This document shows positions 221 to 17,555 of a stretch of 20,122 nucleotides of DNA, one piece after another. The DNA is from a virus. A program made the position numbers and the translations under genes. Below the pieces are notes generated by a model. That model had not been told where the DNA came from. It was given only the letters and a program-made list of their open reading frames with translations, and made no database searches. The stretch lies in IMG/VR virus record IMGVR_UViG_3300037485_002005, positions 1 through 20,122 of that record, one strand, 5' to 3'. Positions within the stretch are counted from its first letter, which is position 1; the number at the start of each line of letters is the position of its first letter.

Positions 221-835
221 ATGGCACATATTTCTTCTATTGGCGCTGCAATGTTTACAGATCTTTCTGTTATCACAGGTACTGTTGTTGCAGGCAAGGC
301 AGAGACTTCACCTACTCAACCTGCAACAAAAGATGCAACAGGCTTTCAAGCATTGTTTACAACTGCAACTTCTGTTTCAAAGTATGCTAAAATAAACAAC
401 GTTAGAGAGTTTCCTGCAATTGGGGCACCTGCAAACATTGTCAGTGTTCCTGTTTATGGTCAAAAACAAGGTCAAAGTATCGGTGGTCAAGCTGATGCAC
501 CTTCTTTGGAAATTACAATTAACTTTGTTGCGAGTGAATGGGCTAAAGGAACTACAGGCACCACTCCAGCATCATCTCTTGCAAATATGGTTGGTGACGG
601 TATTTCTCGTGTTTGGCGTTTTACTTTAATGAACGCTGATTCAACAGCTACTGTTACTGCATCTTTGGGTCAATATGACTCTGTTGCGGGTGGTCTAGGT
701 ACTACTCAAAACAGCCAATATTACTTTTTCGGTAAATTGGAGTCTTTATTGGTAACTCCATCGTTGACTGACGCTACAACTGCAACTCTTGCAATTTCTG
801 TACAATCAGACTTCTACGGTGCTTATACAATCTAA
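221..835 (+). CDS. Major tail tube protein
   Basis: 204 residues, starting at an ATG 2 bases after the upstream stop, with GGAG at 207-210 as likely ribosome-binding site inside the preceding gene. The protein is rich in Thr, Ser, Ala, Val and Gly, has no signal peptide or cysteines, and shows alternating strand patterns typical of tail tube proteins. Motifs in order: a tube-like start (residues 1-25), a segment around ANIVSVPVYGQKQGQS (about 71-86), LEITINFVASEW (about 96-107), and a C-terminal strand ending DFYGAYTI. Known tail tubes of lambda gpV type are 150-250 residues and sit directly upstream of the chaperone pair, as here. It should be the most abundant protein of the tail, stacked in hexameric rings around the tape measure. 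A strong hairpin follows the stop, fitting a highly expressed transcript. The tube role is inferred mainly from position, size and composition. Confidence 0.8.
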   Translation: MAHISSIGAAMFTDLSVITGTVVAGKAETSPTQPATKDATGFQALFTTATSVSKYAKINNVREFPAIGAPANIVSVPVYGQKQGQSIGGQADAPSLEITINFVASEWAKGTTGTTPASSLANMVGDGISRVWRFTLMNADSTATVTASLGQYDSVAGGLGTTQNSQYYFFGKLESLLVTPSLTDATTATLAISVQSDFYGAYTI

Positions 836-1123: not shown

Positions 1124-1163
1124 TTTATTCACAATAACGGAACGGTAAAATGATTCCACAAAT

Positions 1164-1168
1164 TAAGG
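1164..1168 (+). promoter_or_regulatory. Ribosome-binding site deciding the start of the G-like chaperone
   Basis: TAAGG lies 8 bases before the ATG at 1177. The alternative in-frame ATG at 1150 has only a weak ACGGAAC upstream. This favours 1177 as the translation start. Confidence 0.6.
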
Positions 1169-1176
1169 TAAATAAC

Positions 1177-1479
1177 ATGTCAGGTATTAAAAGTTTAGTT
1201 GGTCGTAAAATGACTAAGTCTGTGAAATTCATGGGCGAAGATGTCAAAATTTCAAAATTGAGTGTTTCTGAAGTTATGGACATTCAAGTTAAGGCTAAAG
1301 AAATAGAATCAGATGAATCTGCAGGTCTCGAGTTGCTTCAAACAGTTATTCGTTCAGCTGTTGAGGGTGCTGAAGATTTGGCCGATGAAGATTTTCAAAC
1401 ATTCCCTATGGATGAGTTGTCAAAACTTTCCAATGAAATTATGAAATTTTCAGGCATCGGTGCAGAACAGGGAAAGTAA
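1177..1479 (+). CDS. Tail assembly chaperone, lambda gpG-like (short product)
   Basis: 100 residues from ATG 1177; an upstream in-frame ATG at 1150 would add 9 residues but has a poorer ribosome-binding site. The sequence reads as a compact domain: KSVKFMGEDVKISKLSVSEV near residues 13-32, then an acidic helical part (ESDESAGLELLQTVIRSAVE) and a helix MDELSKLSNEIMKFSG near the end. In lambda, gpG coats the tape measure and recruits tube subunits; the short form is made in excess over a frameshifted G-T fusion. The evidence here is strong from architecture: the frame ends at GGGAAAG followed at once by TAA (1477-1479), and the -1 frame continues as a T-like domain. It lies between the tube and tape measure genes, the usual place. 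Sequence identity to lambda gpG is not obvious by eye. Confidence 0.8.
   Translation: MSGIKSLVGRKMTKSVKFMGEDVKISKLSVSEVMDIQVKAKEIESDESAGLELLQTVIRSAVEGAEDLADEDFQTFPMDELSKLSNEIMKFSGIGAEQGK
1470..1476 (+). promoter_or_regulatory. -1 programmed ribosomal frameshift site GGGAAAG
   Basis: The heptamer G GGA AAG is in phase with the G-like frame (codons GGA 1471-1473, AAG 1474-1476) and the next codon is the stop TAA. It fits the X XXY YYZ slippery rule and is the same heptamer as the lambda G/T site. A slip of one base back leads into an open -1 frame that reaches the TGA at 1803-1805, giving a fusion of about 209 residues. Confidence 0.88.
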
Positions 1480-1805
1480 CTCTGACCGATGAAGACCTTG
1501 CCATATATGAATTAGCTTTTCATTTACATTTGCCTATCTATAAATTAGAGTCTGAAATGACTTATGAAGAACTTTTGGGTTGGTTTTCATATTTTGAACA
1601 AAGACCTGTTGGTTGGAGAGATGATGACCGCACAATGAAGTATTTACAAACACAAGGTGTTAAAGAAAAACCTTGGAATGTATTTGCCTCACTTGACCCT
1701 ATTTATAATCGTCAAAAGGAACACAAATCTGCCTTGTCAGGGTTTAAGAACTCAGGCATGTTCAGTAAACTTCTTTCGGCAACAGGTGGTGATAAAATTA
1801 CATGA
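1476..1805 (+). CDS. T-like domain of tail assembly chaperone, made as a GT fusion (1177..1805) by -1 frameshift
   Basis: The -1 frame is open from inside the G-like gene to TGA 1803-1805. After the slip it reads VTLTDEDLAIYELAFHLHLP and then continues through a segment with WFSYFEQRPVGWRDDDRT. That pattern (aromatic WxxYF, then RP, then W-R-acidic-R) is common in frameshift-expressed chaperone extensions of lambda gpT type. The extension adds 109 residues to the 100 of the short form. The only in-frame independent start is a TTG at 1530 without a good ribosome-binding site, and it would delete conserved-looking residues before it, so independent initiation is unlikely. In lambda the T domain contacts the tube protein while the G part binds the tape measure. 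The stop overlaps the next ATG (ATGA at 1802-1805), indicating translational coupling. Confidence 0.82.
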   Translation, partial: VTLTDEDLAIYELAFHLHLPIYKLESEMTYEELLGWFSYFEQRPVGWRDDDRTMKYLQTQGVKEKPWNVFASLDPIYNRQKEHKSALSGFKNSGMFSKLLSATGGDKIT

Positions 1806-2086
1806 TCAAATTAAATCTTAATAAGTTATATTTGAAAGAAGCAAATGTAATAAAACAAAAAACAATACAAGAGTTGCTTAATACGTTGAGAGAAACAACT
1901 CCTGTAGATACAGGAAAGGCTAGAGATGGTTGGTATTTTACCGGAAGTTCAATTCGAAATGATGTAGAATATATTGATGAATTAAATCAAGGAACTTCAA
2001 AACAAGCACCAGCACACTTTATAGAAAAGGCAGTATTAGCACAAAAAGGGGTTATACCTCTGGGTGTTATAGTCAAAACTATATGA
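1802..2086 (+). CDS. HK97 gp10-like neck / tail-completion protein
   Basis: 94 residues, starting at an ATG that overlaps the upstream TGA. Visible motifs are TPVDTGKARDGW (about residues 34-45), NDVEYIDELNQGTSKQAP (about 53-70) and AHFIEKAV (about 71-78). The order PVDTG, then a small linker, then N-x-V-x-Y-x-x-x-x-x-x-GTS, then HFIE is the signature of the HK97 gp10 / phage tail completion family, which sits at the head-tail joint. The protein is at the short end for the family, whose members usually exceed 100 residues. In many siphoviruses this gene lies upstream of the tail tube gene; here it is downstream of the chaperones and just before the tape measure. A perfect terminator follows 7 bases after its stop. 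Family assignment is fairly firm; the precise structural position is inferred. Confidence 0.78.
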   Translation: MIKLNLNKLYLKEANVIKQKTIQELLNTLRETTPVDTGKARDGWYFTGSSIRNDVEYIDELNQGTSKQAPAHFIEKAVLAQKGVIPLGVIVKTI

Positions 2087-2141: not shown

Positions 2142-5100
2142 ATGGCGGTAGTAATTGACATTGAAACTAAAGCGGATTCTGCTAAAAGAGATTTGGATAG
2201 TTTAAACAAAAGTTTAGCTAAGCTGGTTACTTCGTCAAACAATTCAAATAAAGCTTTAGGCAATATTTCCGCAAATAGTTTTAAAAATATAAATAACGAT
2301 TTAAAAACAAATACTAAGGCATTTGAAAATTTTGGAAAAACTGGTAATTCAGCTTTTTCACAACTTAGTAAATCTTCCAACAAAGCCTCAGAATCTGTAA
2401 GTAAAGTCAGTAGCAGTACAAACAAAACCAGTTCTGCTCTCTCAGGTTTAAAAAATACAGTCTTAACGCTTTCAGCTGCATTTTTAGGAATGAGAGGTGT
2501 TTCTGCATTTAATAAAGCTGCAGATGATTTGACCAGTTTGCAAAACCGTTTAAAGTTGGTTGTATCTGATACAGAAAAACTAAGAGAAGTACAAAAAGAT
2601 TTATATAAAATCTCAAAAGAGACAAACACAGAATTTGGAAATACAATAAAAATTTATTCCGATTTCTCACGTGCAAATAAAAGTTTAAGACTTTCTCAAC
2701 AAGAACTTTTAAACTTAACAAAAACAATTAACCAATCGGCAATATTATCAGGTAGTTCTGTTGAATCTGTCAACGCAGCTCTTGTTCAATTTTCTCAAGG
2801 TATAAGTTCAGGAGCTTTTGCTGGAGATGAGCTTAGATCGGTTTTAGAGCAAATCCCCTACCTTGCACAAGGAATAGCAACACAACTTGAAAAGACAACA
2901 GGTGAATTAAAGAAATTTGCTTCCGAAGGCGGTTTGAGTCCAGAAACAGTAATCAAGGCTGTTCATAGAATGGCTGTTAAAACAGAGCAGGACTTTAAAC
3001 TGACAGTAATTACTTCAGAACAAGCGGTGGCCAGACTTGCTGTTTCGTTCAATTACATGCTTGCCGAGATTAATCAATTTTTCGGAGCATCGGAAAAATT
3101 TGCAAAAAAGCTACTATCACTTTCAGATGCAGTTGATACTTTCAATAACTCGATAAGAGATTCAACATTAATTTTAATTCAAAGACTAAGGAATTATATT
3201 CGTCAATTTGACATCTTTGATAAAATGAAATTGCTTGTTATTAGTATTGATGTCGTTGGAAAATTAAATGTAAATTTTAATCCTTTTACTGCTTATGATA
3301 GACTCAAAACAATCATGAGAATTAAAAAGGCAATAGGTTTTGGCAGAGAGATAAAAGAAACAATAGACTTAAATACTGATGTTTCAGCTGAAACCGCTGA
3401 TGATCCTCAATTTCAAAGCAAGGTAAAAAATAAAATTAAAATTATTGAGGAACTTAAGACAGCATCATCTCTGTTTGTAACAAATATAAAAAGATTAATG
3501 CCGGAATTTAGATTGGCTGTTGTTACAGCCTCAAGTCAAGCGACGAGAGATTTGAAAATATTCGGATCAAAATCAGAAGCAATAACATATGAACAACTTA
3601 TACCTTTTGCAAGAAGTTTAGAAAGTATTGCAGAAAAAATGACACTATGGAGAATAGCTGATAATGCTTTATCCAGATCTTGGGTTAATCTCTTTAATTC
3701 TACAAATTTAGTAGAATTTACAAATAACCTAGAAGAATTAAACAAACAAAGGCAAAAAACTGATTTGAGTGACTCTACTTTAAGAGTCTTGCGATACAGC
3801 GCGGCATTAAATACAGTAATAAACCCAATACAAACAATGCTTGTTGAGCTAAATCTTCTTGACAATGCACTTATCAGAATACAACAAAGCAGACTAGATC
3901 GAATAATTGGATATTTTAAAAATCTTGGAAAGGTTGTTACACGTGTTTATCAAGATATTTTTGCTCCTACACTAGAACCATTTTTAATAAAGATTGCAGC
4001 TATTGTAATTGCCGAAATAGAGGCTGTTGCGGACGCAATTAATGATATGTTTAACCTGTCTTCAGGAAAAGAATTTGCAAAAAATCTTTTCGAAATGTTT
4101 AATAAACTATTTAAAGATATTAAAGTATTCTTTAAAACTTTAGAGAGTAACGAAAACCCATTAAATAATTTATTTAAAAATATTAAAATCTCTAAAATAC
4201 AGTCAAGCTTAATAACAGCATTCAAGAGTATATTTGAATTTATTAAAGGATTTTTCTTACAAGTAGGTAACGAAATTAGCGATAGTGCTGTAGGTGATCT
4301 TTTTGATGACTTTTCTAATAAGGTTCAAAAAGAAATTTCGTATTTAAAACATTTTTACAAAGAAATTAAAAATAATATTTCAGAAAAAATTTTAGATTTT
4401 AAAATAAATTTTGCACTTAATTATATCTTTAATCCTACTCCTTTACAAAAGGCATTAAAACATCTTTTTAATCTATTTGAAAAGTTATCAGAAACAGGTG
4501 AAAGTAAATTAAAGATTGTACAAGAAAGGATTAAGTTATTTTCTGAAAGTATTATAGATTATTTCTATAATATATATGATAAGGTTGTTGGACATTCATA
4601 TTGGCCAGATATGATTGACGGTGTAAATGAATATGCACCTAATATTTTCAAATCAAAAGGTATTATAGAAAACTTTAAAGACAGTATAGTTTCTCTTTTT
4701 AAAACGCTTTCCAAAGATATTTTAAACGTTGCAAATGATATTGGAGGGATATTTAAAATTATTGTTAACAAGATAGCTGAACAGAATATTTCAGATATTT
4801 TTAAAGTCTTAGGAGAAAGATCTGGTGCAACCTTTTTAGCGGGTATCCTTTTTAGTTTTGGAGACCCCAGACTCAAAATAATGGCAGTTGCATACTTTGT
4901 GTCCTTAACAGATGCTGTTTTTAAAGGCATTGTTACAGATATTGGTCCTTATTTTGCTACAATATTTGGATCAATGATTGGCCAATTTTCGGCAAATGCT
5001 CTAAAAGGTTTGATGACTATACTTAATACAGGCATAAATGCATTTCCAGATATTGTCAGTAAATTTATCAGCTCATTGTCTCCTGTTTTTGGCGTTTTTA

Positions 5101-8100
5101 CTTCTATCCTTAGTAATTTTGAAATATTTCAGAATAGCCTTTTACACGGAATACTATTAATTGGTGCAGCATGGGCTCTTTTTACTAAAAAAGGATCTAA
5201 AGATATTTCAGAGATTCTATTTGGAAAGGCTGCTAAGAAAGGTAAACCAAAAACAGAAGGAGTTATTGATTATTTAAAAGCAGCATTTATTTCCGAAAAT
5301 GCTGTGGCATTACAACCTAAAGTTTTAAGCTTTTTTGATAAGGCGTTTAATAATAAAAAATTAGCATACATTGCAGCAGCAGCTTTTGGAACAGCAATTT
5401 TTGACAGTATTTCAATCATTGAAGCAAGTCAGTTTGGAATCCCTTTATTAGCTTTTGCAATAATGGGTAAAGACGGTGGCGGTAAAATACTTCGAGAAAG
5501 TATAACAATGATTTCTTATTTTGGTTCAACCTTGTTAGGGATATTTTTAAGACGTATTGGACTGGAAAGTGCCGCAACTTCTTTTTTAAAATCATTAATA
5601 CCTGAAAAACCTGAAATGAAATCTGCTTTTGAAAAAGCAGGTTCTGATTTGTTTAGTTCTTTTAAACAAATGGTTATAAATTTAAGATCAAATTCTAAAC
5701 AATTAGGTTCTGGTGTTTTCTCGTTTAAAGATGCTTTATTAAATACAAGAGAAGATATTCAAAAAATAAGACCCCTTACATCACAAGATAGATTGCGGCC
5801 AGCAACAAATATTGGTAAAATCACAAGAATACCAATTAAGTCTCAGTTAAATAAAACGATTGAAGAGTTTTCTTTTACAGATACAGGCAAAAAGTTAAAA
5901 TACAACTTTGATTTAATAAAAGATTCTATTGAAAATGCATTTTTAAATTTTCAAACAACATTTGAAAAAGGTTTTAAAATATTAAGCAAACTGACAAAAA
6001 CAGGTCTTACCAGTATTGTTGATTATTTTTCAGACCCTGCGCTTATGGGCAAAATTGGCAAAAGCATTAACGCCTTATTAGGAGCTATAACGTTAAGTTT
6101 TAAAAGTGTTTTTAATAATGCAAAAATAGGTCTTTCAGGTTCAATCAAAGCAATATTGATAACAATAAGTGCTATATTCGGTCAATATGCGTCTGCAGCT
6201 TCAAATTCAGAAGCGGCTGTCGATTCGCTTCAAGATAGCATTACAATGATTACCTTATCAACAGTAGGGCTGGTTGCTGCTTTTTCAACAATTGGCTACT
6301 TAATGAAGGCCTATAAAATATATAGTAAAGAAGGCTTTGATGCAACCATTCTTTATTTTAAAGATTCAATAAAGTGGATTACAATCTTATCTGATAAGTT
6401 TTCAGATTTTATAAAATTGTCTGCCTTTAAAAGTGAATGGTGGAAAGAAAAAGGCAATTTAGTAAAGAATCATTTTAAACTTTCTCCAAGTTTTGCAAAA
6501 CAATGGATATCTGCTTATAATTCATTAATCGGCAAAAATAATGGATTATTAACATCTCTTGGTGAATTGTATGCTACAGAAACAGGTCTTTCAAAAATAA
6601 TAGTCTTATTAAAAATAGTAGGCAGAGCCTTTACAAGTTTTGGAAGCGGTGCTATAAGATTAAGCTTATTATCGCTACTGGCTTATTTAGAAACAATTCG
6701 AAGTTCTTTTACAGGATTTGTAAAACTTGTTTCATCAGATAAACTTTATAATGCTTTGAAGAAAAACTTTACTTATAGCCTTTTTACAAGAAAGATGATT
6801 GACGATTGGTCGACAACATATAAAAAGGTTGAAATGTCTATGCCAGGACTAGATAAAGTTGGCAATAAGTTTATAGCTTTTTTACATTTTGTTATATTAT
6901 TTCTTTCAGCTTCAAGCGAAACATTTTATATGCTTAATAAAGCAATCATTATAATTGGAGACTCAATTGCACACACTTTGTTTTCTTTATTAAAACCTGG
7001 TACTCTAGTTAAAAACATGATGACAGGGCTTTCAGGAGTTTTTACAGTTGCTGTAGAAATGATTACAAGTTCTTTGTTTTATCTTGCAAGAACAGCTTTA
7101 AGCGTTATAGGTAAACTATTACGAATGGTTGCTCCATTCGTAGGAATTGTTACAGCGGTTGGTGCTTTTGGTCTTTATTTATTCGGTCCTGGAAATACTT
7201 TTGTAGATAAGATTGAATGGGCCTATGATAAAATAAGAAGTATATTTGATCTTAAACCAACAACACGTTTTGGTAAAATGAATGAAATGTTGGAAGCAAC
7301 AAAACCTATAAGCATGGGAGGAAATGTTGCAGACCTTCAGAGTGCTGTTGCAAAGATTGATGTAAAGAAACAAAATGCAGCAGAATTTGTTGTATTGAAA
7401 GAGGCAGCTGATGCAGCCACAACGGGTTTGAAAGATTTACAAACCTTATATATAAAACAAGGTTATGTTTCTGAAGAAATGTTACAAGAATGGAATACTC
7501 TTGTAAACAATTTTAAAGATATTGCATCAAATCAACCTCAAGATACTACCAAAGCTCCTGAATCTTTAAAAGATCTTGCTGTATCTATGCTGGAGGTAAA
7601 GACAACTGCATGGGACTTGACAAAAGCTCTTTTAGGTATTTCTGATACATTCTCTGAAGAAATCTCAGGAATAGAGTACAATATTGAAAAGTCTAAACCA
7701 AAAATAAAGTCATTTATGCAAAGTCTATCTGACTCTTTAATGACAGGATTGGACACAGCCATTGAAGTTGGCTTTGTAGCAACAGTAGCCAACAAAATAA
7801 GTAGAATATTCACTGCAATAAGTTTGCCAAAACCATCACAAATGGCATTGACAACAAGAGAGTATGTTGCTCAAGTTGCTGCCAGAGATGCTTTAATAGC
7901 AGGTTCTGGAAAGCTTGCAGTTGGTGCTGTTAGTTGGCAACTTGCAATAGCAGCAACAGTTGTACAAATGACTCCTGCAATAAAATCCTTAATGGCTTTT
8001 GGTACTCATTTGCGATTCTTAGGGATAGAAGGTACAAGTAACGCTGTTATTTTTGACAAGCTTGCTAAAAAGTTCTTAAACATTGATGATGCAGGTTCAA

Positions 8101-11100
8101 AAGTTAGTGGTGGAATTGATGAGTTTTTAAATATATTTTCAGGAGAAAACTTTGATGCAGCTTACAATGATGTACTCAACAATACAAGTAGTTTTCTAGA
8201 TAAATTTAAATCAACAATTATAACTGATCTTGACTTTTTATTTGAATATTTTGGTGGTAAATTTAAAGTAAAACCTCAAAAATCTCGTTATGATAAGGAT
8301 AGTATTCTTAGCAGAACCTCTTTTGTTCCAGGTGAAAGCTATAGTGGACGTTTAGATAGACTTACAAGAGAAAGAGAAGCTTCTTTTGCCGAAAAGAATC
8401 CAAAACTTGTCGAATTGTCCAGTAAAACTTCGATGCTAAATATTGATAAGTTGGTTGCAGATATTGCCGACCCTGAATTGAAAGCTTTTACTGAAGCAGG
8501 AATACAGCAATATAAAGATGCTTTGAAGGCTTATAAGATAATTGCGGATCAAAATTACGATCCTAGCAAAAACCCTTCAGGAGCTAGAGATGCAAAAGAT
8601 TTTAATAGACTAAAAGGAAAAGCTTCAAAAGATCTTTTTGACATTGGTGTACCTAAGTTATTCTCTCTTGAAAAGAATGTGGCACCTATTGCAAAACAAG
8701 ATAAGCTGGTAAAAGAATTTGCTTCTGATTTTGCAGAACTTGGCGACAACATGAAAAATGTTCTCGGCATAGATATGGGAGTTAAGTTTAAAGATTTCTT
8801 TGGTAACAAAGAAGATATAGAGAAATTTAAAAAGTCTGTAGAAGAAGTTAGAAAAATAGATATTCAGCTAGCTGTTAAAACTAACACTTATGAACAAAAA
8901 TCTGAACTTCAAAAGCAAAAAGCAAAAATAATCAAAAACATCGATACAACAGTAAGTAACATCAAAGCATATGCAGATAAATATGGAACAGTAGATTTAA
9001 CACTGTCGACACAAGCTAATATAGTTGGTGGTGCTGAATATAAAAGTGCTGTTGCCATGCTTCAAAAAACAGATGCAAACAAGTATGAAAAGTTTAGTTT
9101 ATTATCAAAAGCACTTGAAGAAAATCAATTAAAACTATCTAATTGGAATATTGCTGTTGACGGTAGTATTGAGCGTTACGATGCTCTTGAGAAGAAAAAT
9201 AGACAAGCTCAACAAAGTCTTTTGGATATGTTACCTAAAAATAATTGGGTAGACGCTTTAAATGAAAAATTACAAAAATTAAACTTAACAGCAATTAATG
9301 TTGAATCTTTTGCTTATTTTAGTAAATCGGATACCGAGCAATTTAATTCTCAACTTGACAGTATTATACAAAAAGAAAAAGATCTTTCACAACTAAGGTC
9401 TGACAATAAGCCTTTTGAAGAGCAAATAAAAGTATTGAAAGAGATATTCATGCTTCAACAAAATGTTGCTATTGGATTGGAGCAAGCTTCAAATAAAGCT
9501 TTAAGCTCTGCCGTAAAAGACTCTACTTCTACATTGAGTAATAAAATCACCCAATATGAAAAATTAACAGGTGATGTTGTACCCAATACAGTTAAAGCTA
9601 CAGGTGAAGCTCAACAGTATATGGATACAAAGAGTCAAATAAAAGACTTTGAAACTGCAAGTAAATCTGGTCAGTTGTCTACACAGTATGCTGCACAAGA
9701 AATTTATAAATTGGAAGAAAATCTAACTAGATTAGGTGTGATAACAAAACTTACATTAGATTCTATAATTTCCAGTTTTGGTGATTTAGGTTTAACAATA
9801 AACAATTTAAGTTTTTCAAGGCTATCTTCAGATACTCAAACCTTCTTAGCAAGCTTAAGTAGTGAAATACAATCTATAACAAAAATATTGTCTGAAACAG
9901 AATTTAGTTCAGCCACAGCAGATTTGTTAAAGAGACAAGAACAGTTATTAATGACAGCCGCAGATGTTTTAATCGAAGCAAGTTATAAAACTGGAGAAGG
10001 TATTTCATCAGCATTGAGTCGTTTAGGATTATCAGAAAACAGTACAATTGCAAATCTCAATAAGGCTCAACTCAGCGGTCTGCTTGAAATGGACAAGGCA
10101 GCTGAAAAGGCAAGAATTCTTGCCTCCAGAGCTTCAAATCCTGAAGATTATTTAAAGAGAATTAGAGATCAGGCAAAAGCCACAATTCGAGGTACTCAAG
10201 AAGCCGAGAGAATGGCAAATAGCTTTGAGAAGAATATTTCTAATCTTAATGAAGTGTTTAAGACAAGTCTTGATGGTTTTGATGTAACAGCAATGTCACC
10301 TCAAATAGTTTCTTTTGCGACAGATATGGCAAGAGAGCTTAAAAATGAATTGGAGATTGCAATTGCCGAAAACCAACCAACTGCGGAGTTGTTTGAAGCT
10401 TTCAAAGCTGCTGAAGTTATTGGTGGTTTCATTACATTATTTAAAGATTTAGGAACAGGTCTTAGAGATGCTATTGTTGGTGGTGCTGAAGCGGGCTTTG
10501 AGAAAATTAAGAGTGTGTATTCTGAAAGTCAGTTGACTTTCAAACAATATGCAGGATTAAAGCCTGAAAGAAGACGCCAAATGGCTCAAGAAGCAACATA
10601 TCAAGAAGCTTTTAGGAAAGCTGCAAATATGCAGTTGACACCTGATCAGGCTAAAACACTTGATCGTATTGGTGCTGGTGAAGATGTTTCAAAGGTCATG
10701 AAGGACTTTAAAGATCAATTTGGTGATATACTGAATAAAAGCGACAATCCAATTGTTCTTTCTCAAGACAGTTTAAAAATATCTATTGATTCCCTAAAAG
10801 ATTCTATTGATATTTGGAGAAAAGAAAGACAAATTATGACCGATGAAGCTTCAGGTAAATTGAAAGGAACAGAAGCACGATCTCAACTAAATGATTTTGT
10901 TGAATCAATAAATAAAAAGAAGGATAACAAACCTTTTGGAAGTGTTGACTTATCTTCAAAAACTCTAATGAGAGCAAGAGAAGCTACTTTAGCCACAAAG
11001 AAACAAGATTTTGAAACTCTTGGAGCAATGCTATCAGAAGCAAATTTTAAAGACGTATTGGATGCTGCTGACGGTTTTGGAAAAGAAACTATGAATCTGG

Positions 11101-12167
11101 CCAGTGATGCGCAATTAAAACAAGCTGCGGAAATTAAAGTTAAACTTGCAAAATTAGAAACTGACCTTGCTTATGCTAGCCTAAACAACCTTGATACAAA
11201 AGATATTCAAAGAAAGATTGACGACTATACTTCTGAATTAAGCAGAATACCTTATGCTATTGACTATTTGCGTAATGCTGTAAGAGAAGCCGGTGTAAAT
11301 ATGAGAGATACTGTCGATACAACTTTCAGAGCAGCTTTCACTGATCTATTGAAAGGTAAAACTGCTGAAGGGCAATCTGCATTTTCAACATTCACAAGCG
11401 CTATCATGGACAGTATAACTAATTCTATTGTCGATACGTTTGCTAAAGGAATAACTGATAAGATAACCGGACCGGGAAGTTTAATTGCAGGTGCTGCTCA
11501 ATCAATGGGTGAAGGTATATATGGACTCTTCGGTAATGCAACCAAAGGAATAAATAGTAATGGTGTGCCAAGCCTTTTGGATAAAAATGGTCCAGATTCA
11601 CAATGGATGACCGATATGTGGACAGGTTTGAAAAGTGGTGCAGAGTCTGTTTTTGGCGGTAATGGCTATATAATGACCAGCCTCAAATGGCTTGGAACCA
11701 ATGCTATGGACATTTTTAGTAGTGTAACTGATTTCTTCACCAAAGGTGGAGGTTCAGATTTGTGGGGTTCAGTCACAAAATTGTTTGTTGCTACAGGTGG
11801 TCAAATAAAAGGCTCAGGAACAGGCACTTCAGACTCAATACCTGCAATGCTTTCAAATGGCGAATTTGTAATAAACGCTAAAGCCACAAAAGAAAATTTA
11901 AAGCTATTGCATGCAATAAATAGTGGAAATATTCCTAAATTTGCCACTGGAGGTCTGGTCAACAATCTTCCAAGCTTCTCTTTAAGTACAGCAAAAAGCC
12001 TTGATACATCTAAACTTAACAAGACCAATGACGGAAATAGTCAAATAATAAACTTGACAATTACAGGTGATATCTCTCGTCAAACAAAATCGGAAGTTTA
12101 TAAAATGCTACCTCAAATTGCAAATGGGGTAAATTCTCACAACAAAGAAAAAGGTTATAAGGGATAA
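2142..12167 (+). CDS. Giant tape measure protein
   Basis: 3341 residues from an ATG with AAGGAG at 2130-2135, 6 bases upstream. Tape measures fill the tail tube, set tail length, and are ejected with the DNA. Residues about 121-273 match the conserved N-terminal tape-measure domain, including SSGAFAGDELRSVLEQIP and, after it, a segment ending SPETVIKAV. A C-terminal conserved block (about 3217-3273) reads ATGGQIKGSGTGTSDSIPAM and ends FATGGLV, seen in many tape measures. Residues about 900-1700 carry many hydrophobic segments, e.g. about 998-1014, 1366-1388 and 1662-1682, while the last 1500 residues are mostly charged and helical. No peptidase or lysozyme motif was found by eye. Lambda gpH is 853 residues for a 135-nm tail, so this protein implies about 500 nm. 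The coding frame is intact throughout. It is followed 2 bases later by the next gene. Confidence 0.95.
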   Translation: MAVVIDIETKADSAKRDLDSLNKSLAKLVTSSNNSNKALGNISANSFKNINNDLKTNTKAFENFGKTGNSAFSQLSKSSNKASESVSKVSSSTNKTSSALSGLKNTVLTLSAAFLGMRGVSAFNKAADDLTSLQNRLKLVVSDTEKLREVQKDLYKISKETNTEFGNTIKIYSDFSRANKSLRLSQQELLNLTKTINQSAILSGSSVESVNAALVQFSQGISSGAFAGDELRSVLEQIPYLAQGIATQLEKTTGELKKFASEGGLSPETVIKAVHRMAVKTEQDFKLTVITSEQAVARLAVSFNYMLAEINQFFGASEKFAKKLLSLSDAVDTFNNSIRDSTLILIQRLRNYIRQFDIFDKMKLLVISIDVVGKLNVNFNPFTAYDRLKTIMRIKKAIGFGREIKETIDLNTDVSAETADDPQFQSKVKNKIKIIEELKTASSLFVTNIKRLMPEFRLAVVTASSQATRDLKIFGSKSEAITYEQLIPFARSLESIAEKMTLWRIADNALSRSWVNLFNSTNLVEFTNNLEELNKQRQKTDLSDSTLRVLRYSAALNTVINPIQTMLVELNLLDNALIRIQQSRLDRIIGYFKNLGKVVTRVYQDIFAPTLEPFLIKIAAIVIAEIEAVADAINDMFNLSSGKEFAKNLFEMFNKLFKDIKVFFKTLESNENPLNNLFKNIKISKIQSSLITAFKSIFEFIKGFFLQVGNEISDSAVGDLFDDFSNKVQKEISYLKHFYKEIKNNISEKILDFKINFALNYIFNPTPLQKALKHLFNLFEKLSETGESKLKIVQERIKLFSESIIDYFYNIYDKVVGHSYWPDMIDGVNEYAPNIFKSKGIIENFKDSIVSLFKTLSKDILNVANDIGGIFKIIVNKIAEQNISDIFKVLGERSGATFLAGILFSFGDPRLKIMAVAYFVSLTDAVFKGIVTDIGPYFATIFGSMIGQFSANALKGLMTILNTGINAFPDIVSKFISSLSPVFGVFTSILSNFEIFQNSLLHGILLIGAAWALFTKKGSKDISEILFGKAAKKGKPKTEGVIDYLKAAFISENAVALQPKVLSFFDKAFNNKKLAYIAAAAFGTAIFDSISIIEASQFGIPLLAFAIMGKDGGGKILRESITMISYFGSTLLGIFLRRIGLESAATSFLKSLIPEKPEMKSAFEKAGSDLFSSFKQMVINLRSNSKQLGSGVFSFKDALLNTREDIQKIRPLTSQDRLRPATNIGKITRIPIKSQLNKTIEEFSFTDTGKKLKYNFDLIKDSIENAFLNFQTTFEKGFKILSKLTKTGLTSIVDYFSDPALMGKIGKSINALLGAITLSFKSVFNNAKIGLSGSIKAILITISAIFGQYASAASNSEAAVDSLQDSITMITLSTVGLVAAFSTIGYLMKAYKIYSKEGFDATILYFKDSIKWITILSDKFSDFIKLSAFKSEWWKEKGNLVKNHFKLSPSFAKQWISAYNSLIGKNNGLLTSLGELYATETGLSKIIVLLKIVGRAFTSFGSGAIRLSLLSLLAYLETIRSSFTGFVKLVSSDKLYNALKKNFTYSLFTRKMIDDWSTTYKKVEMSMPGLDKVGNKFIAFLHFVILFLSASSETFYMLNKAIIIIGDSIAHTLFSLLKPGTLVKNMMTGLSGVFTVAVEMITSSLFYLARTALSVIGKLLRMVAPFVGIVTAVGAFGLYLFGPGNTFVDKIEWAYDKIRSIFDLKPTTRFGKMNEMLEATKPISMGGNVADLQSAVAKIDVKKQNAAEFVVLKEAADAATTGLKDLQTLYIKQGYVSEEMLQEWNTLVNNFKDIASNQPQDTTKAPESLKDLAVSMLEVKTTAWDLTKALLGISDTFSEEISGIEYNIEKSKPKIKSFMQSLSDSLMTGLDTAIEVGFVATVANKISRIFTAISLPKPSQMALTTREYVAQVAARDALIAGSGKLAVGAVSWQLAIAATVVQMTPAIKSLMAFGTHLRFLGIEGTSNAVIFDKLAKKFLNIDDAGSKVSGGIDEFLNIFSGENFDAAYNDVLNNTSSFLDKFKSTIITDLDFLFEYFGGKFKVKPQKSRYDKDSILSRTSFVPGESYSGRLDRLTREREASFAEKNPKLVELSSKTSMLNIDKLVADIADPELKAFTEAGIQQYKDALKAYKIIADQNYDPSKNPSGARDAKDFNRLKGKASKDLFDIGVPKLFSLEKNVAPIAKQDKLVKEFASDFAELGDNMKNVLGIDMGVKFKDFFGNKEDIEKFKKSVEEVRKIDIQLAVKTNTYEQKSELQKQKAKIIKNIDTTVSNIKAYADKYGTVDLTLSTQANIVGGAEYKSAVAMLQKTDANKYEKFSLLSKALEENQLKLSNWNIAVDGSIERYDALEKKNRQAQQSLLDMLPKNNWVDALNEKLQKLNLTAINVESFAYFSKSDTEQFNSQLDSIIQKEKDLSQLRSDNKPFEEQIKVLKEIFMLQQNVAIGLEQASNKALSSAVKDSTSTLSNKITQYEKLTGDVVPNTVKATGEAQQYMDTKSQIKDFETASKSGQLSTQYAAQEIYKLEENLTRLGVITKLTLDSIISSFGDLGLTINNLSFSRLSSDTQTFLASLSSEIQSITKILSETEFSSATADLLKRQEQLLMTAADVLIEASYKTGEGISSALSRLGLSENSTIANLNKAQLSGLLEMDKAAEKARILASRASNPEDYLKRIRDQAKATIRGTQEAERMANSFEKNISNLNEVFKTSLDGFDVTAMSPQIVSFATDMARELKNELEIAIAENQPTAELFEAFKAAEVIGGFITLFKDLGTGLRDAIVGGAEAGFEKIKSVYSESQLTFKQYAGLKPERRRQMAQEATYQEAFRKAANMQLTPDQAKTLDRIGAGEDVSKVMKDFKDQFGDILNKSDNPIVLSQDSLKISIDSLKDSIDIWRKERQIMTDEASGKLKGTEARSQLNDFVESINKKKDNKPFGSVDLSSKTLMRAREATLATKKQDFETLGAMLSEANFKDVLDAADGFGKETMNLASDAQLKQAAEIKVKLAKLETDLAYASLNNLDTKDIQRKIDDYTSELSRIPYAIDYLRNAVREAGVNMRDTVDTTFRAAFTDLLKGKTAEGQSAFSTFTSAIMDSITNSIVDTFAKGITDKITGPGSLIAGAAQSMGEGIYGLFGNATKGINSNGVPSLLDKNGPDSQWMTDMWTGLKSGAESVFGGNGYIMTSLKWLGTNAMDIFSSVTDFFTKGGGSDLWGSVTKLFVATGGQIKGSGTGTSDSIPAMLSNGEFVINAKATKENLKLLHAINSGNIPKFATGGLVNNLPSFSLSTAKSLDTSKLNKTNDGNSQIINLTITGDISRQTKSEVYKMLPQIANGVNSHNKEKGYKG

Positions 12168-12169
12168 TT

Positions 12170-12763
12170 ATGTACGGTATCTATGAAAACGGAAAAATTA
12201 TTGCGGGCTTTGTCGCACCGATAAAGGTGATCAGCAATAAACCTGTCTTCGTTTCAGATACCCTTTCATTGAAAAGAGCAACATTTTCAAGAACAGCTCA
12301 ACGATGGGAAATAGAAACTAATCTAGAACCTCTCGTTGAGACTGCTCATGATCTGTTTGTAAATTTAGTGACAAAGGGTTATTCTGAAACCATTACAATT
12401 TTAATGCCACAAAATTATGGCGTAATTTTAAAAAGAACATCCACAGCAACTCCAACGGCAACACAAGCTGTTGCAGGGTCTTCAAGTGTTGTTGTGACAA
12501 ATAATAGTGGATTGATACCCAAAGGTACATTCATCAAGTTTGCTGAACACAGCAAAATCTATATGACAACAAATGATTTGTCAGGAAACGGAACTTTAGG
12601 AATATATCCAGCACTTAAAACGGCCACATCAGGTATATTCAAGCACCGTGATGATGTCTTAATGTCTTGCTTATATGATACAACAACAGTTATTGGAATG
12701 GCTTATACCGACGGTATTCTTATGGATATAGGCTCAGTAAAGCTTGTGGAGAAATTGGCATGA
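12170..12763 (+). CDS. Distal tail / tail-tip protein
   Basis: 197 residues; ATG 2 bases after the tape measure stop, with AAGGGA at 12159-12164. The N-terminal part (about 1-85) is strand-rich and contains LKRATFSRTAQRWEIETNL, a pattern seen in distal-tail proteins that form the ring at the end of the tube. A second beta-rich segment (about 95-165) has SSSVVVTNNSGLIPKGTFIK and then FAEHSKIYMTTNDL, resembling a module inserted in tail-tip proteins of many siphoviruses. The chain then returns to the first fold near the C terminus (MDIGSVKLVEKLA). Position directly after the tape measure matches lambda gpM/gpL or Dit proteins. The final TGA overlaps the next ATG (ATGA at 12760-12763). The tail-tip role is well supported by context; the exact family name is uncertain. 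Confidence 0.65.
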   Translation: MYGIYENGKIIAGFVAPIKVISNKPVFVSDTLSLKRATFSRTAQRWEIETNLEPLVETAHDLFVNLVTKGYSETITILMPQNYGVILKRTSTATPTATQAVAGSSSVVVTNNSGLIPKGTFIKFAEHSKIYMTTNDLSGNGTLGIYPALKTATSGIFKHRDDVLMSCLYDTTTVIGMAYTDGILMDIGSVKLVEKLA

Positions 12764-13347
12764 TACAATTCAGCGCGAATATACAAGCTTGTTTAGACTC
12801 AGATAATATTGAAGCTTTTTACTTACTGAGAATAACATACAGTAATGGTACACCGATATACTCAAGCACTTCACATTTTTTAGATATTACTCTGTCAAAT
12901 GGTTATGTTTACACAGCAGATTCTTTAATTGAAGCTGTTGATCCTCCAAACTTATCATCAAGTGTGGATAAAGAACAGTATAAGATTGTACTGGCTGATC
13001 CATCACTTTCTGAAATGCCGATACTGGAATCTAATATAATAGGTAAACTTTTAGAAACAAGAGTTGGTTTTATCAATAAAGCCACAGGCTTTCCATTTCT
13101 GAATACATCAGACACATTAGTAGTTTATAAAGGTAGAATTGAAAGTGCAAGTTACATTATTGATACAAAAGAAATTGGAGAATGTAAATTACAGATTTCA
13201 GGTTCAAGTCCAATAGTTAATTTGGATCAAAAGAACGGAATATATTTAAGTAAAGATTCTATAAGAAGAAGAGACGGCACTGATACTTGTTGTGATCAAA
13301 TTTATGAAGGATCAGGTGCTTTAGTTTTAAAATGGGGGAAAGCCTAA
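12760..13347 (+). CDS. Tail-tip hub-associated protein
   Basis: 195 residues; ATG overlaps the previous stop and has TGGAGA (12747-12752) at a 7-base spacing. The sequence is beta-rich: SHFLDITLSNGYVYTADSLI (about 38-57), a segment ending DPPNLSSSVDKEQYKIVLAD (about 61-80), and YKGRIESASYII (about 122-133). The C terminus has a Cys-Cys pair in DTCCDQIYEGSG and ends LKWGKA. Proteins of this shape, with a WGK-type ending, are found between distal-tail and gpJ-like genes in lambda-related siphoviruses and are thought to join the tip complex. I see no NlpC/P60 Cys-His-His arrangement, so it does not look like the lambda gpK peptidase. Its stop (TAA 13345-13347) shares a base with the likely start of the gpJ-like gene (TAATG), indicating coupled translation. 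Confidence 0.65.
   Translation: MIQFSANIQACLDSDNIEAFYLLRITYSNGTPIYSSTSHFLDITLSNGYVYTADSLIEAVDPPNLSSSVDKEQYKIVLADPSLSEMPILESNIIGKLLETRVGFINKATGFPFLNTSDTLVVYKGRIESASYIIDTKEIGECKLQISGSSPIVNLDQKNGIYLSKDSIRRRDGTDTCCDQIYEGSGALVLKWGKA
13334..13338 (+). promoter_or_regulatory. Ribosome-binding site favouring ATG 13347 for the gpJ-like gene
   Basis: GGGGG ends 8 bases before the ATG at 13347 and can pair with the CCUCC of 16S rRNA with one G-U pair. The earlier in-frame ATG at 13332 lies before this element and has no good site of its own, so 13347 in the TAATG overlap is preferred. Confidence 0.5.
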
Positions 13348-16300
13348 TGGGTTTCTGGACACAGCTTGTAATGCTGATAATTAGTGTAGCTTCTACTGCT
13401 TATCAAATGGTACAAGCTTCAAAAAAGAAAGTTACAAATCCTGCAACAAGCGATGCTGCTGCTCAAGCAAGATTGGGTTTTGAATTACCCACAGAAGGGA
13501 GAGCCGAGTTTTTACCCAAAGTATACGGTAAAGCTAAAGTAGGAGGAGTGAGAGTTTATCATAATACAACAAGCGCATTTAAGTATACATCGACAAATGC
13601 TGATCGTTCTTTTCAAACTGGACCTACGTCTATAGCTGGAGGGACATTTTCAAGAGTTAAAAAAGATGTCAGTGGAAATCTTTACAATGAAGTCGAAAAT
13701 TATGCAAGTATCGACTCAGGGGAATTATCTAAAGATATCGAAGGAACTAAAAATGAATTTTTATTCTTTCAACAAGCCTTATGTCAAGCACCTATAAATG
13801 GTATAATTGATGTAATAATAGATGAATCTAGACATTTGGATGATCCTGCACTGGGTTCGTTCAAGGCTGAAGTATGGTCGAAAGTCAAAGCGGCAATGAG
13901 AATAGACATTCACAATACAGGTAATGCTTCAGACTCAATCATGTCAGCAAATTTCAGTGAAAGACTGGATGCCAAATTTAAAGATATTGCATATGCATCT
14001 GTTGTAATTCGTTTGGATCGTGATGATCCTCAGTTCAGTTCAGTACCTGCATTACAATTTTTAATGGAAGGCTCACTCGTAAGAAAAGTTATTGGCGGTG
14101 TACTTTCAACAACCTATGTATACTCAAACAACCCTGCTTGGTGTTTATTAGATTATCTGTTAGATACAAAATCAGGCAAAGGTGTAAACCCATTAACTGA
14201 AGTTGATTTGGCTTCTTTTGAAGATGTTGCTGCAGTTTGTGAAATGATAGTTCAGCAAGATGCGATTGTTGGTGGAAAATTATACCAACCTACAGACGAT
14301 TCAAGAAATATTTATACAAGAGATTTACCTCTATATGAATGCAACTTGATCACCGACCCTAAGAAATCTATAAGAGATAATATAGAATCTATATTGGAAA
14401 CAATGGGCGATGCAAGACTTGTTTGGTCAGGTGGTAAATATAAGTTGAGTTTACAATATCCAGCAAACAATCAAGAACTAAATGTTGCAGCCACAATAAC
14501 CGATGATGTTCTTTCTCTAGATCAAAGTGTTGAAATAAATTGGCCAACTGCAAGTCAAAGATTTAATAACTGTACTTTAAGATTTCATAATGAATGTGAA
14601 GACTTCAAAGAAGATTCTGTATCATGGCCACCAAAAGTTACAACAACAATTTTCAAAGGTATTGGAGGTTTCAACTATTCTCCATCAATAGGTGAGTATG
14701 ATGAAGATACCGCAGGAGGCAGACTTCTCAACAAGTATGGTGTATGGTCGGGTGGCGGTACAACAACAACTTTAGATTATAAGTTTTTGGTTTCAAAGAT
14801 ACAAAGTGGCGCTTGTACATTAACTATCTCTGCAGATAGTGCAATGACATTGACTATAAAAGATGATATTACAAATACTGTAATTTATACACTAAGTTCA
14901 ACAGCTGCTAAATCAATAAACACTTTAGCTCTGAATTTGGGCAATGCAAATATTGATAAGGTATACTCAATACACATCACAGCTTCAGGTGGTTCAAAAA
15001 CAAGAGCTGTTTCTGCAAGTATAACAAGTACAAATTATGTAATTTGGACAACTCGTACATTGGCTTACACTGCATTTGTAACAAATGTTTTAAACTCAGC
15101 AGTATATGATGAAATGCTGATTGAAGATAGTGGATTAGTTTTAGAACTTGATATGTTTTCTGAAGGAATTACCGATGCTTATCATGCTCTAGCCAAAGCT
15201 GAAGAATTGGTCAGGACAAGTCGTTCAGCTTTCGGATTGAAATTTAGTTATGTGGTTAAGTCTGTTTATTTAGAACCTGGCGATTATATAAGCATAAACA
15301 GCGATACATTACTTATAGGTTCCGGAGTTGATCCTTTATATTTCAGAGTTGAGTCTGTAAAGATAACTGAAGAAAATACTTGTGAAGTTTTTGCAAGTAG
15401 ATTCGATTATACACAATTGGCATGGAGTATTAAGGATGATCAGTATCCGAAACCACCTCCTGTCTATGATTCTAGAATACCTGCCCCTGAATGGATTGAA
15501 TACACACCTCAAGCAAGTGGTCTTACAAATTCTTCTGGATATTTAAATTGGGCGTCAGTAAGTTTGGTTGATACTTATGTTTTATATGTACATACATCAA
15601 ACGATCTGATTGATGAAAATGGAATACCTGTTTTTACTGAAATAGGCAGAACACCAACAACTTCTTTTTCATTGCCTCTTTTAAATGCAACAAGTGCATA
15701 TTTTGGTGTTAAAGCTTCTTTGAATGGTCGTTTATCTCAAATGACCTATACAGATACTTCATCACCCATTCTGCTTGATCAGTACACTTACTCATTTACA
15801 AATTTAAGTTTTACATATAACAGTCCATCTACCAATCAAATTTCTTGGAACAATTTCACCATAACTTTAAATGGTATTGTCACAAAAAATATCAGTGCCG
15901 GAAATGCAACATGGACTTCAGATCACTTATATATTTATTACAATCCAATTTCAAATCTTGTCTTATCAACAACACTAATAAATATTGCGAATTCAGGCAA
16001 ACTTTTGGCCATATACGATGGTGGAAATAACTTAGTTGTTAAAGTTTCTAATCTTGATCCGCCAATAAATCTATATGTAAAAGATACAACAGCAGGAATT
16101 TATTCAAATAAAGATTTAGAATTGACTTGGGAATATCCTTTAAGTAATGATAATAAAACAGATGTATTCAGTCATTACTTGATACAATTGTATACTACTT
16201 CAAATGTTTTAAAACATAGCGAAAAAGTGGAGTATTCAACAAACAGAAGTGGTTATTATAAACTGTTGTTCAGTAATAATATAAACTATTTTGGAACTGC

Positions 16301-17555
16301 AACTCGGTCTTTTATTGTTAAAGTTTATAGTGTGGACATTTCAGGTTCTTTGTCATCAGCAATAACTTTGACAGTTAATAACCCTGTACCCACCCTGACA
16401 GCTTGGACAGTATTGCCAAGTTTTAATTCTGTGAGTGTAAAAATAACAAACTCAGCTGAATTGGATATCAATGAATATCGTATTTATAAATCTCCAACTC
16501 CAAATTTCACGAAAGATTCATCAACTCTTGTCTATGCAGGAAAAGAAACTTATGTGAATATTAATGCATTGGGTGAAGTTTTGTATTATTATTCGACTTC
16601 AATAACAGATACATTCGGTGATGCTGGTATATCTTTTTCTCAAGAGCAATCGGCAATGTCAGCCAAGACAGATCCTGATACATATACATATACAGGTTTA
16701 ACTTTTGTTGCAAATCATAATGCAGCTCAATCTGTCTCAAACGGTGTTGATTCAGGATATGCTCTGAATAATGTATATTGGTCAGCTTTCACTGTGTCAA
16801 AAAATGGAGGTACAGCGTCTTCGTTACCTGCAGGAACTGCGGCTTGGACTACAGGTGTATTGTATATTTATTATATTCCTGGAGATACTGTTTTAAGAAC
16901 CAATGTAAGTCTTTTGGGAGCAATTACCGCAGGTGGAAGGATTCTCGCCACATATAAGGGTGGAACAGATCTTACACATGATGAAGGCCGTGCTTTTGTT
17001 TCTGGGGATCAGTTGCTTGCCGGAACAGTAGGCGCAAACGCTTTAGTCACAAATACTGCTGTGATTACAAACTCAGCCCAAGTTGGTAATATACTTGAAA
17101 GTAGTAACTATAGCTGGACAACGGGCAACTATGCCGGTTGGCGAATTGATAAAACAGGGTATGCTCAATTCGGTGGTCTGACAATTCGTAAATCTAATGG
17201 CGATTTGGTAATGTCTGCAGGAAACGGTGTTGAATGGGATACAGGAATTACAGGTACAGGCAAACCTGCTGATGGTGCAACTGTGGGTGGAAGCTTTGGA
17301 GGTATAGATGGGGCAGGTGGAAACATTTCAGGAACAATTAATTCTGGAAATGCGTCCACCTATATTGCCGATGCTGCAATAGGTACTGCTCAAATAGGTA
17401 GTTTAAGTCTTACCGGTACAGATTTCAGTTATAAATCCAGTGTAAATACTAGTGCAGACCGTATTGAAATGGATAGCCAAAGTATAAGAATATATGCAGC
17501 AAACCCTTTAGGAGGAGCAGCAATACTTCGAGTTAGATTGGGGAATTTGTCGTGA
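13347..17555 (+). CDS. Tip attachment / receptor-binding protein, lambda gpJ-like
   Basis: 1402 residues from ATG 13347 (1407 if ATG 13332 is used). The protein should form the trimeric tail tip that contacts the host surface. The start is hydrophobic (FWTQLVMLIISVASTAYQMV, residues 3-22). It is followed by the gpJ-type core, with ELPTEGRAEFLPKVYGKAKVGG at about 45-66 (its GRAEFLPKVYGKAKVGG part is typical), NPAWCLLDYLL about 261-271, and SILETMGDARLVWSGGKYKL about 346-365. From about residue 700 there are fibronectin-III-like units and two copies of a beta domain (about 812-899 and 1111-1209). The C-terminal part has DQLLAGTVGANALVTNTAVI and then GWRIDKTGYAQFGG, a layout common at gpJ C-termini; the last 50 residues are Gly/Ala/Ser-rich. 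Distal modules probably determine receptor specificity. The TGA overlaps the next GTG start (GTGA at 17552-17555). Confidence 0.9.
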   Translation: MGFWTQLVMLIISVASTAYQMVQASKKKVTNPATSDAAAQARLGFELPTEGRAEFLPKVYGKAKVGGVRVYHNTTSAFKYTSTNADRSFQTGPTSIAGGTFSRVKKDVSGNLYNEVENYASIDSGELSKDIEGTKNEFLFFQQALCQAPINGIIDVIIDESRHLDDPALGSFKAEVWSKVKAAMRIDIHNTGNASDSIMSANFSERLDAKFKDIAYASVVIRLDRDDPQFSSVPALQFLMEGSLVRKVIGGVLSTTYVYSNNPAWCLLDYLLDTKSGKGVNPLTEVDLASFEDVAAVCEMIVQQDAIVGGKLYQPTDDSRNIYTRDLPLYECNLITDPKKSIRDNIESILETMGDARLVWSGGKYKLSLQYPANNQELNVAATITDDVLSLDQSVEINWPTASQRFNNCTLRFHNECEDFKEDSVSWPPKVTTTIFKGIGGFNYSPSIGEYDEDTAGGRLLNKYGVWSGGGTTTTLDYKFLVSKIQSGACTLTISADSAMTLTIKDDITNTVIYTLSSTAAKSINTLALNLGNANIDKVYSIHITASGGSKTRAVSASITSTNYVIWTTRTLAYTAFVTNVLNSAVYDEMLIEDSGLVLELDMFSEGITDAYHALAKAEELVRTSRSAFGLKFSYVVKSVYLEPGDYISINSDTLLIGSGVDPLYFRVESVKITEENTCEVFASRFDYTQLAWSIKDDQYPKPPPVYDSRIPAPEWIEYTPQASGLTNSSGYLNWASVSLVDTYVLYVHTSNDLIDENGIPVFTEIGRTPTTSFSLPLLNATSAYFGVKASLNGRLSQMTYTDTSSPILLDQYTYSFTNLSFTYNSPSTNQISWNNFTITLNGIVTKNISAGNATWTSDHLYIYYNPISNLVLSTTLINIANSGKLLAIYDGGNNLVVKVSNLDPPINLYVKDTTAGIYSNKDLELTWEYPLSNDNKTDVFSHYLIQLYTTSNVLKHSEKVEYSTNRSGYYKLLFSNNINYFGTATRSFIVKVYSVDISGSLSSAITLTVNNPVPTLTAWTVLPSFNSVSVKITNSAELDINEYRIYKSPTPNFTKDSSTLVYAGKETYVNINALGEVLYYYSTSITDTFGDAGISFSQEQSAMSAKTDPDTYTYTGLTFVANHNAAQSVSNGVDSGYALNNVYWSAFTVSKNGGTASSLPAGTAAWTTGVLYIYYIPGDTVLRTNVSLLGAITAGGRILATYKGGTDLTHDEGRAFVSGDQLLAGTVGANALVTNTAVITNSAQVGNILESSNYSWTTGNYAGWRIDKTGYAQFGGLTIRKSNGDLVMSAGNGVEWDTGITGTGKPADGATVGGSFGGIDGAGGNISGTINSGNASTYIADAAIGTAQIGSLSLTGTDFSYKSSVNTSADRIEMDSQSIRIYAANPLGGAAILRVRLGNLS
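15780..16043 (+). repeat. Beta-domain repeat, copy 1, inside the gpJ-like gene
   Basis: Encodes about 88 residues beginning QYTYSFTNLSF and containing NISAGNATWTSDHLYIYY and GKLLAIYDGGNNL. It aligns with the segment at 16677-16973 by eye: YTY-F/L-T/S start, AGxAxWTxxxLYIYY core and the LAxYxGGxxL end. The divergence shows an old duplication or two independent acquisitions. Confidence 0.75.
16677..16973 (+). repeat. Beta-domain repeat, copy 2, inside the gpJ-like gene
   Basis: Encodes about 99 residues beginning DTYTYTGLTF and containing LPAGTAAWTTGVLYIYY and GRILATYKGGTDL. It matches copy 1 at 15780-16043 in order and spacing of these motifs; the loop after the first strand is about 10 residues longer. 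Two fibronectin-III-like segments lie between the copies. Confidence 0.75.

Follow-up and report, generated by a model that had tools for sequence, protein, structure and literature searches.

Positions 2142..12167 (+ strand) of the virus record IMGVR_UViG_3300037485_002005 hold what is, on well-supported sequence grounds, an intact tape measure protein gene. The window, meaning here the whole stretch of DNA analysed, is a 20,122-nt virus fragment, and the gene within it opens with an ATG and codes for a cysteine-free protein of 3,341 amino acids (aa). Scaled against tape measures of phages with measured tails, it predicts a tail of approximately 420-545 nm. Two side results, the exchange of tape measure cores between phages and the near-exclusion of cysteine from these proteins, matter more than the length of the ruler itself.

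The tape measure gene

The first-pass annotation of the window had described the gene as uninterrupted, and the single frame at 2142-12167 indeed spans 3,341 codons with zero internal stops, whereas among 30 first-order Markov sequences of matching composition no open run exceeded 140 codons. The guanine plus cytosine (GC) content at the third codon position lies between 0.17 and 0.26 in all 900-nt slices of the frame, which is thus coding-like throughout. Tape-measure motifs had also been claimed for both ends of the protein and are found there: a TMP_3 domain (PF20155; E 9.5e-45, 153.1 bits against a cut-off of 41) occupies residues 124-312 (2511..3077, + strand), PHROG tape-measure profiles match residues 12-442 and 3207-3293, and a C-terminal GTGTSDSIPAMLSNGEFVI motif region (residues 3217-3273; 11790..11960, + strand; phrog_25241, E 3.8e-18) begins 124 aa before the C-terminus. 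TMP_3 was the only Pfam family above the cut-off, and no enzymatic domain was found in this search. The gene sits between a chaperone gene with a predicted frameshift and the gene for the distal tail protein (Dit), with a small conserved open reading frame (ORF) intervening after the chaperone gene. The domain, the motifs, the order of the genes and the conserved frameshift site of the chaperone gene all back its identity as a tape measure. By composition, the protein contains 2.0% proline and 5.9% glycine, and several hydrophobic stretches fall within residues 606-1684.

The protein was initially put at nearly four times the length of lambda gpH, and the ratio is 3.9 (3,341/853; gpH length from NC_001416). 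The remark that the gene takes up half of the window is correct for the 20,122-nt fragment and uninformative on the genome, since the record is a fragment. Internal repeats were considered as the origin of the length and rejected, as self-comparison of the 16 longest members of the group described below, including the window, gave no off-diagonal match at E 1e-4; DNA repeats in the gene are short, weak and chance-like in appearance.

Predicted tail length

Tail length per tape measure residue can be derived for four phages with reported tails: TP901-1 (118 nm, PMC5099701; 937 aa, NC_002747; 0.126 nm per residue), TM4 (1,229 aa, 200 nm, 0.163 nm per residue; PMC1796659), phiCbK (1,964 aa, 300 nm, 0.153 nm per residue; PMC3556154) and Colossus (2,155 aa, 336 nm, 0.156 nm per residue; PMC3556154). 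The deletion of 114 aa from the TM4 tape measure is reported to correspond to 20 nm (PMC1796659), and published ruler data also exist for TP901-1 tape-measure deletions (PMC5099701). At 0.126-0.163 nm per residue, 3,341 aa give 421-544 nm, and a line through the four phages gives 536 nm. Thermus phage P23-45, with 5,002 aa and a reported tail of >800 nm (PMC9022992), is in line with this scaling. The 0.15 nm per residue assumed in the first-pass annotation agrees with the four values above, and its tail of about 500 nm, taken as a prediction, falls within the implied range.

A clade of long tape measures

A search of viral contigs with the tape-measure N-terminus returned zero close relatives, and the clade was therefore approached via the J-like tail tip protein, by collecting tip protein matches from IMG/VR; counts of relatives refer to the matches listed. 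TMP_3 was matched in 16 of 17 records in a first set and in 27 of 41 in a second, the latter being 41 of the 80 tip loci listed, of which the remainder had already been searched, were short or were left out. After removal of near copies (G005, G012 and G017 from the first set; G021, G030, G036 and G037 from the second), 37 tape measures remained, that of the window included. With EBPR siphovirus 1 and its clade the window shares the J-like tip, the small tail protein, the Dit and the tape-measure ends, all in the same order.

The 37 tape measures range from 1,394 to 4,959 aa (median 2,529), and the window ranks eleventh, with 10 longer members. Fourteen of the 37, counting the window, have a single frame that is 3,000 aa or longer. 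For comparison, 398 genomes from the phylum of Edwardsiella anguillarum yielded 53 TMP_3 frames in 42 genomes, with lengths of 442-1,727 aa, some of them perhaps shortened by contig ends. The window ruler is thus about twice the longest of these frames and ordinary within its clade, so that its description as unusually long is upheld against isolates and prophages and does not stand among its own relatives; the tape measure of P23-45 (5,002 aa) is longer as well. The tape measures of L120 (G042), L107 (G043), L115 (G039) and L113 (G023) extend to 4,330-4,959 aa, near the length of that of P23-45, and would give tails of approximately 650-750 nm if each residue adds 0.15 nm. Bacterial contigs were uninformative on the host, the only two matches to the tip being distant (29-31% over short pieces), and DSS3_PM1 was set aside as an imaged relative, as a tape measure was not found just upstream of its J gene.

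Conserved ends and exchange of the core

Conservation among the 37 members is concentrated at the ends of the protein, with a mean of 25.6 aligned members at N-terminal residues 50-350 and 16.3 over the C-terminal 350 residues, compared to 2.5-9.4 per slice between them. Core stretches of the window protein at approximately residues 1300-1600 and 1900-2100 align to almost no other member. In 26 of the 37, the start of the C-terminal motif lies 111-148 residues before the end; in five, its last copy lies further in, and in the remaining six its profile found no copy. In 17 of the 37 tape measures (e.g. L024, L020, L012 and L113), the motif (GTGTSDSIPA..LSNGEFV) recurs once or twice inside the protein, while the window has a single copy; if the C-terminal motif binds the tail tip, these internal copies require explanation.

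The clearest case of a core differing between related phages is provided by G024 and G027, which share 95.6% DNA identity over a 9,557-nt stretch starting in the last ~66 tape-measure codons. Their tape measures (2,455 and 2,168 aa, respectively) match in BLAST only over residues 1-249 (55%) and the last ~150 residues (63%), while that of G024 is 91% identical to the tape measure of G026. The mosaic joint lies within the last ~66 codons, the 95.6% identity downstream running from L039:8631 and L045:8397 onward. Judged from these sequences, phages whose tail tips are nearly identical exchange the cores of their tape measures, and one tail tip can work with different rulers, given that G024 and G027 are near-identical downstream and differ in their cores.

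Near-exclusion of cysteine

The window tape measure contains no cysteine in 3,341 residues, where 18 would be expected from the nine other proteins of the window, which hold 16 cysteines in 2,906 residues. The 37 examined clade tape measures together hold four cysteines in 104,484 residues, and 35 of them have none. Tip proteins, by comparison, hold 819 cysteines in 141,697 residues (0.58%) when all 102 ORFs, copies included, are counted, and 772 in 131,858 for the 96 unique tips, none of which is cysteine-free. In the ratio of residue frequencies between tape measures and tips, cysteine is the outlier at 0.007, followed by tyrosine at 0.38. Low cysteine contents are also seen in other tape measures. 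Pieces of 30 bacterial TMP_3 frames contain one cysteine in 23,960 residues, EBPR siphovirus 1 gp63 and gp64 none in 3,352, and nine named phages from several families (EBPR excluded) two in 12,953, made up of lambda (0/853), TP901-1 (0/937), TM4 (0/1,229), P23-45 (0/5,002), phiCbK (1/1,964), HK97 (0/1,089), Mu (0/690), P2 (1/815) and T4 gp29 (none in the first 374 residues).

These comparison sets are not mutually independent, and low cysteine is frequent in virion proteins, the window tube, G and other small proteins being likewise cysteine-free. For both reasons, it is the contrast between tape measures and tips, rather than a p-value, that carries the cysteine point. A precedent is found in the giant virion RNA polymerase of N4-like phages, which is reported to be cysteine-free, with a suggested aid to membrane crossing (PMC5795418), and the same precedent is given for phiAxp-3 (PMC4837373). 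A literature search of open-licence papers did not find a cysteine remark on tape measures, although one may be in print elsewhere. Tape-measure chains would be packed parallel and in register within the tube and then pushed into an oxidising space, and they may be unable to tolerate thiols, since cysteines facing one another would lock the chain bundle. The proposal of a no-cysteine rule for tape measures, with the clade as a natural length series for both this rule and the linear ruler law to approximately 750 nm, is one that could equally well hold or fail.

Neighbouring tail genes and the chaperone frameshift

The gene order in the window is that of a standard siphophage: tube, G/GT chaperone, small conserved ORF, tape measure, Dit and J-like tip. 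The major tail tube protein (204 aa; 221..835, + strand) has a weak profile match (phrog_158, E 3.7e-4) and shares 46-56% identity with its relatives in a 14-row alignment. The top PDB match of its low-confidence AlphaFold model (predicted local distance difference test score of 53) is lambda gpV (E 5.7e-4), with other tail tube proteins ranking below. A tandem pair of tube-like protein genes occurs in L026, at 446-1039 (198 aa) and 1058-1843 (262 aa).

A G-like tail assembly chaperone (109 aa; 1150..1479, + strand) follows the tube gene, with a profile match to phrog_4976 (E 0.0026) and a match to Phage_TAC_7 below the cut-off (0.052); it is conserved in 45 ORFs in the fetched loci, copies included. 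A GGGAAAG heptamer predicted to serve a -1 frameshift is located at 1470..1476 (+ strand), immediately before the zero-frame stop at 1477, and is the slip heptamer of lambda too. The -1 frame stays open as far as 1805, which would provide a T-like extension (1477..1805, + strand) and, judging from the sequence, a GT product of approximately 218 aa; the chaperone gene is thus predicted to yield a G/GT pair. An equivalent slip site is present ahead of the tape measure in 25 of the 27 loci tested, 24 of the 25 being GGGAAAN. No such site was found in EBPR siphovirus 1 or in L108, where the upstream sequence searched was 801 nt only. GGGAAAN with an immediate in-register stop occurs once in the window, where 0.6 instances are expected by chance on one strand, and the site is persuasive on account of its place and conservation rather than its rarity.

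Directly upstream of the tape measure is a small ORF (94 aa; 1802..2086, + strand) that is HK97-gp10/Neck1-like by profile (phrog_169, E 4.9e-10), with 50 ORFs in the fetched loci, copies included. Downstream, the Dit gene (197 aa; 12170..12763, + strand) matches phrog_1302 (E 4.3e-11) and, under the Pfam cut-off, the pb9 B domain (E 0.001); it follows the tape measure in 33 of 36 relatives, mostly at a distance of no more than 10 nt. A conserved tail protein (195 aa; 12760..13347, + strand; 110 ORFs in the fetched loci, copies included) lies between the Dit and the J-like tail tip or host-specificity protein (1,407 aa; 13332..17555, + strand), which shares 41.6% identity with EBPR siphovirus 1 gp67 over residues 1-815 and also matches the 'J' proteins of DSS3_VP1 and DSS3_PM1. 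A 291-aa ORF after the tip genes (18856-19731) has relatives in just two fetched loci, L034 and L011.

Proposed model and alternative explanations

Given the gene, its domains, the gene order, the slip site, the conserved ends and the free core seen in the sequence, the window gene very probably codes for the tape measure of a siphophage with a lambda-type tail, its conserved ends acting as anchors and its middle as the ruler. The C-terminal ~120 residues would be anchored at the tail tip, where the Dit and J-like proteins lie, and the TMP_3 region at the N-terminus would face the head, a polarity that derives from lambda. The G and GT chaperones, made from one gene through the -1 frameshift, would hold the tape measure until tube rings displace them, and the rings would stack along the long middle, free in sequence, until its end is reached. 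At infection, the tape measure would have to exit the tube ahead of the DNA.

Several points weigh against this reading. TP901-1 reaches only 0.126 nm per residue, the fit placing 127 residues outside the ruler (PMC5099701), and tape measures are known to be processed, at either end or internally (PMC1796659). The literature search yielded zero electron micrographs of phages from the clade of the window, the tube protein model is of low confidence, the slip-site search of EBPR siphovirus 1 gave none, and the window starts just upstream of the tube gene, the head and neck genes falling outside it. Tape-measure length also tracks the tip tree, from which G016 was omitted among the 36 relatives as it has no tip sequence (Spearman 0.40, 0 of 999 permutations as high), and ruler length is therefore not wholly independent of the tip.

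A shorter tail is conceivable given that TP901-1 has 127 non-ruler residues and that tape measures are known to be processed. That a large part of the window tape measure is removed by processing or fails to reach along the tail, folded hydrophobic segments (several such stretches fall within residues 606-1684) being kept for the membrane channel, and that the tail is clearly below 400 nm, nevertheless appears rather unlikely, as the tails of phiCbK (1,964 aa), TM4 and Colossus scale with the full protein length and the TP901-1 tail was also reported to be shorter after removal of Tm2-3 (PMC5099701), so that hydrophobic parts count as ruler. Far less probable is a contractile tail, as in a myovirus, with the protein measuring a sheathed tail. 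TMP_3 proteins are not restricted to siphophages and the genes upstream of 221 lie outside the window, yet Phage_sheath_1 matched none of 10 relatives and three of 14 control genomes (the window itself being without the stretch upstream of the tube gene), the window encodes a Dit and a J-like tip and not baseplate wedge genes, and the tube model is nearest to lambda gpV. It is scarcely credible that faulty assembly or the joining of two separate genes produced the 3,341-codon frame. Although EBPR siphovirus 1 is recorded with the same protein split into gp63 and gp64, 14 of the 37 members carry one frame that reaches 3,000 aa or more, and gp64 begins with the very residues in which gp63 ends, owing to a short tandem repeat. 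With the junction stretch so repeated, the split rather than the single frame looks the odd case.

Significance and comparison with known systems

The first-pass annotation was a sound observation with a reasonable prediction, and the window adds a large tape measure of known type. Its chief value lies in the clade that it opened, a natural ruler series on one kind of tail tip that allows a test of the ruler law. Giant rulers with measured tails are few, the Thermus phages and the phiCbK group being the cases among those covered, and the rulers of an uncultured clade, which reach 4,959 aa, suggest that the source environments are not short of tails of 300-750 nm. If widely true, the near-total exclusion of cysteine would be a clue to how the protein bundle sits in the tube and exits from it, as well as a cheap aid for finding tape measures.

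The closest annotated record is EBPR siphovirus 1 (JF412302), which is like the window in tail order and J-like tip (41.6%). Its gp63 and gp64 (1,211 + 2,141 aa) together equal the window tape measure in size and match it at both ends and between, with 22-27% identity. In contrast to the window, its record divides the tape measure between two genes, and a short stretch repeated in tandem where they meet (L023:23580-23680) splits the frame through either an assembly slip or a real split. The phage was placed in the Siphoviridae by sequence similarity, its host being given as unknown (PMC3097231), and a table in the same source assigns the accession JF412302 to another contig, ESV6. Thermus phage P23-45 (P23p96) resembles the window in its giant cysteine-free ruler (5,002 aa; tail >800 nm, PMC9022992), although its record notes a metallopeptidase domain where the window tape measure has TMP_3 alone above the Pfam cut-off. 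Caulobacter phage phiCbK gp95 is similarly a large ruler (1,964 aa), reported with a measured tail of 300 nm, and is accompanied by a frameshifted chaperone gene. Lambda, with gpH, gpG/gpGT and gpV, shares the gene order and, by a weak structural match, the tube fold, while differing from the window in its 853-aa gpH and in its tail-tip set of M, L, K, I and J.
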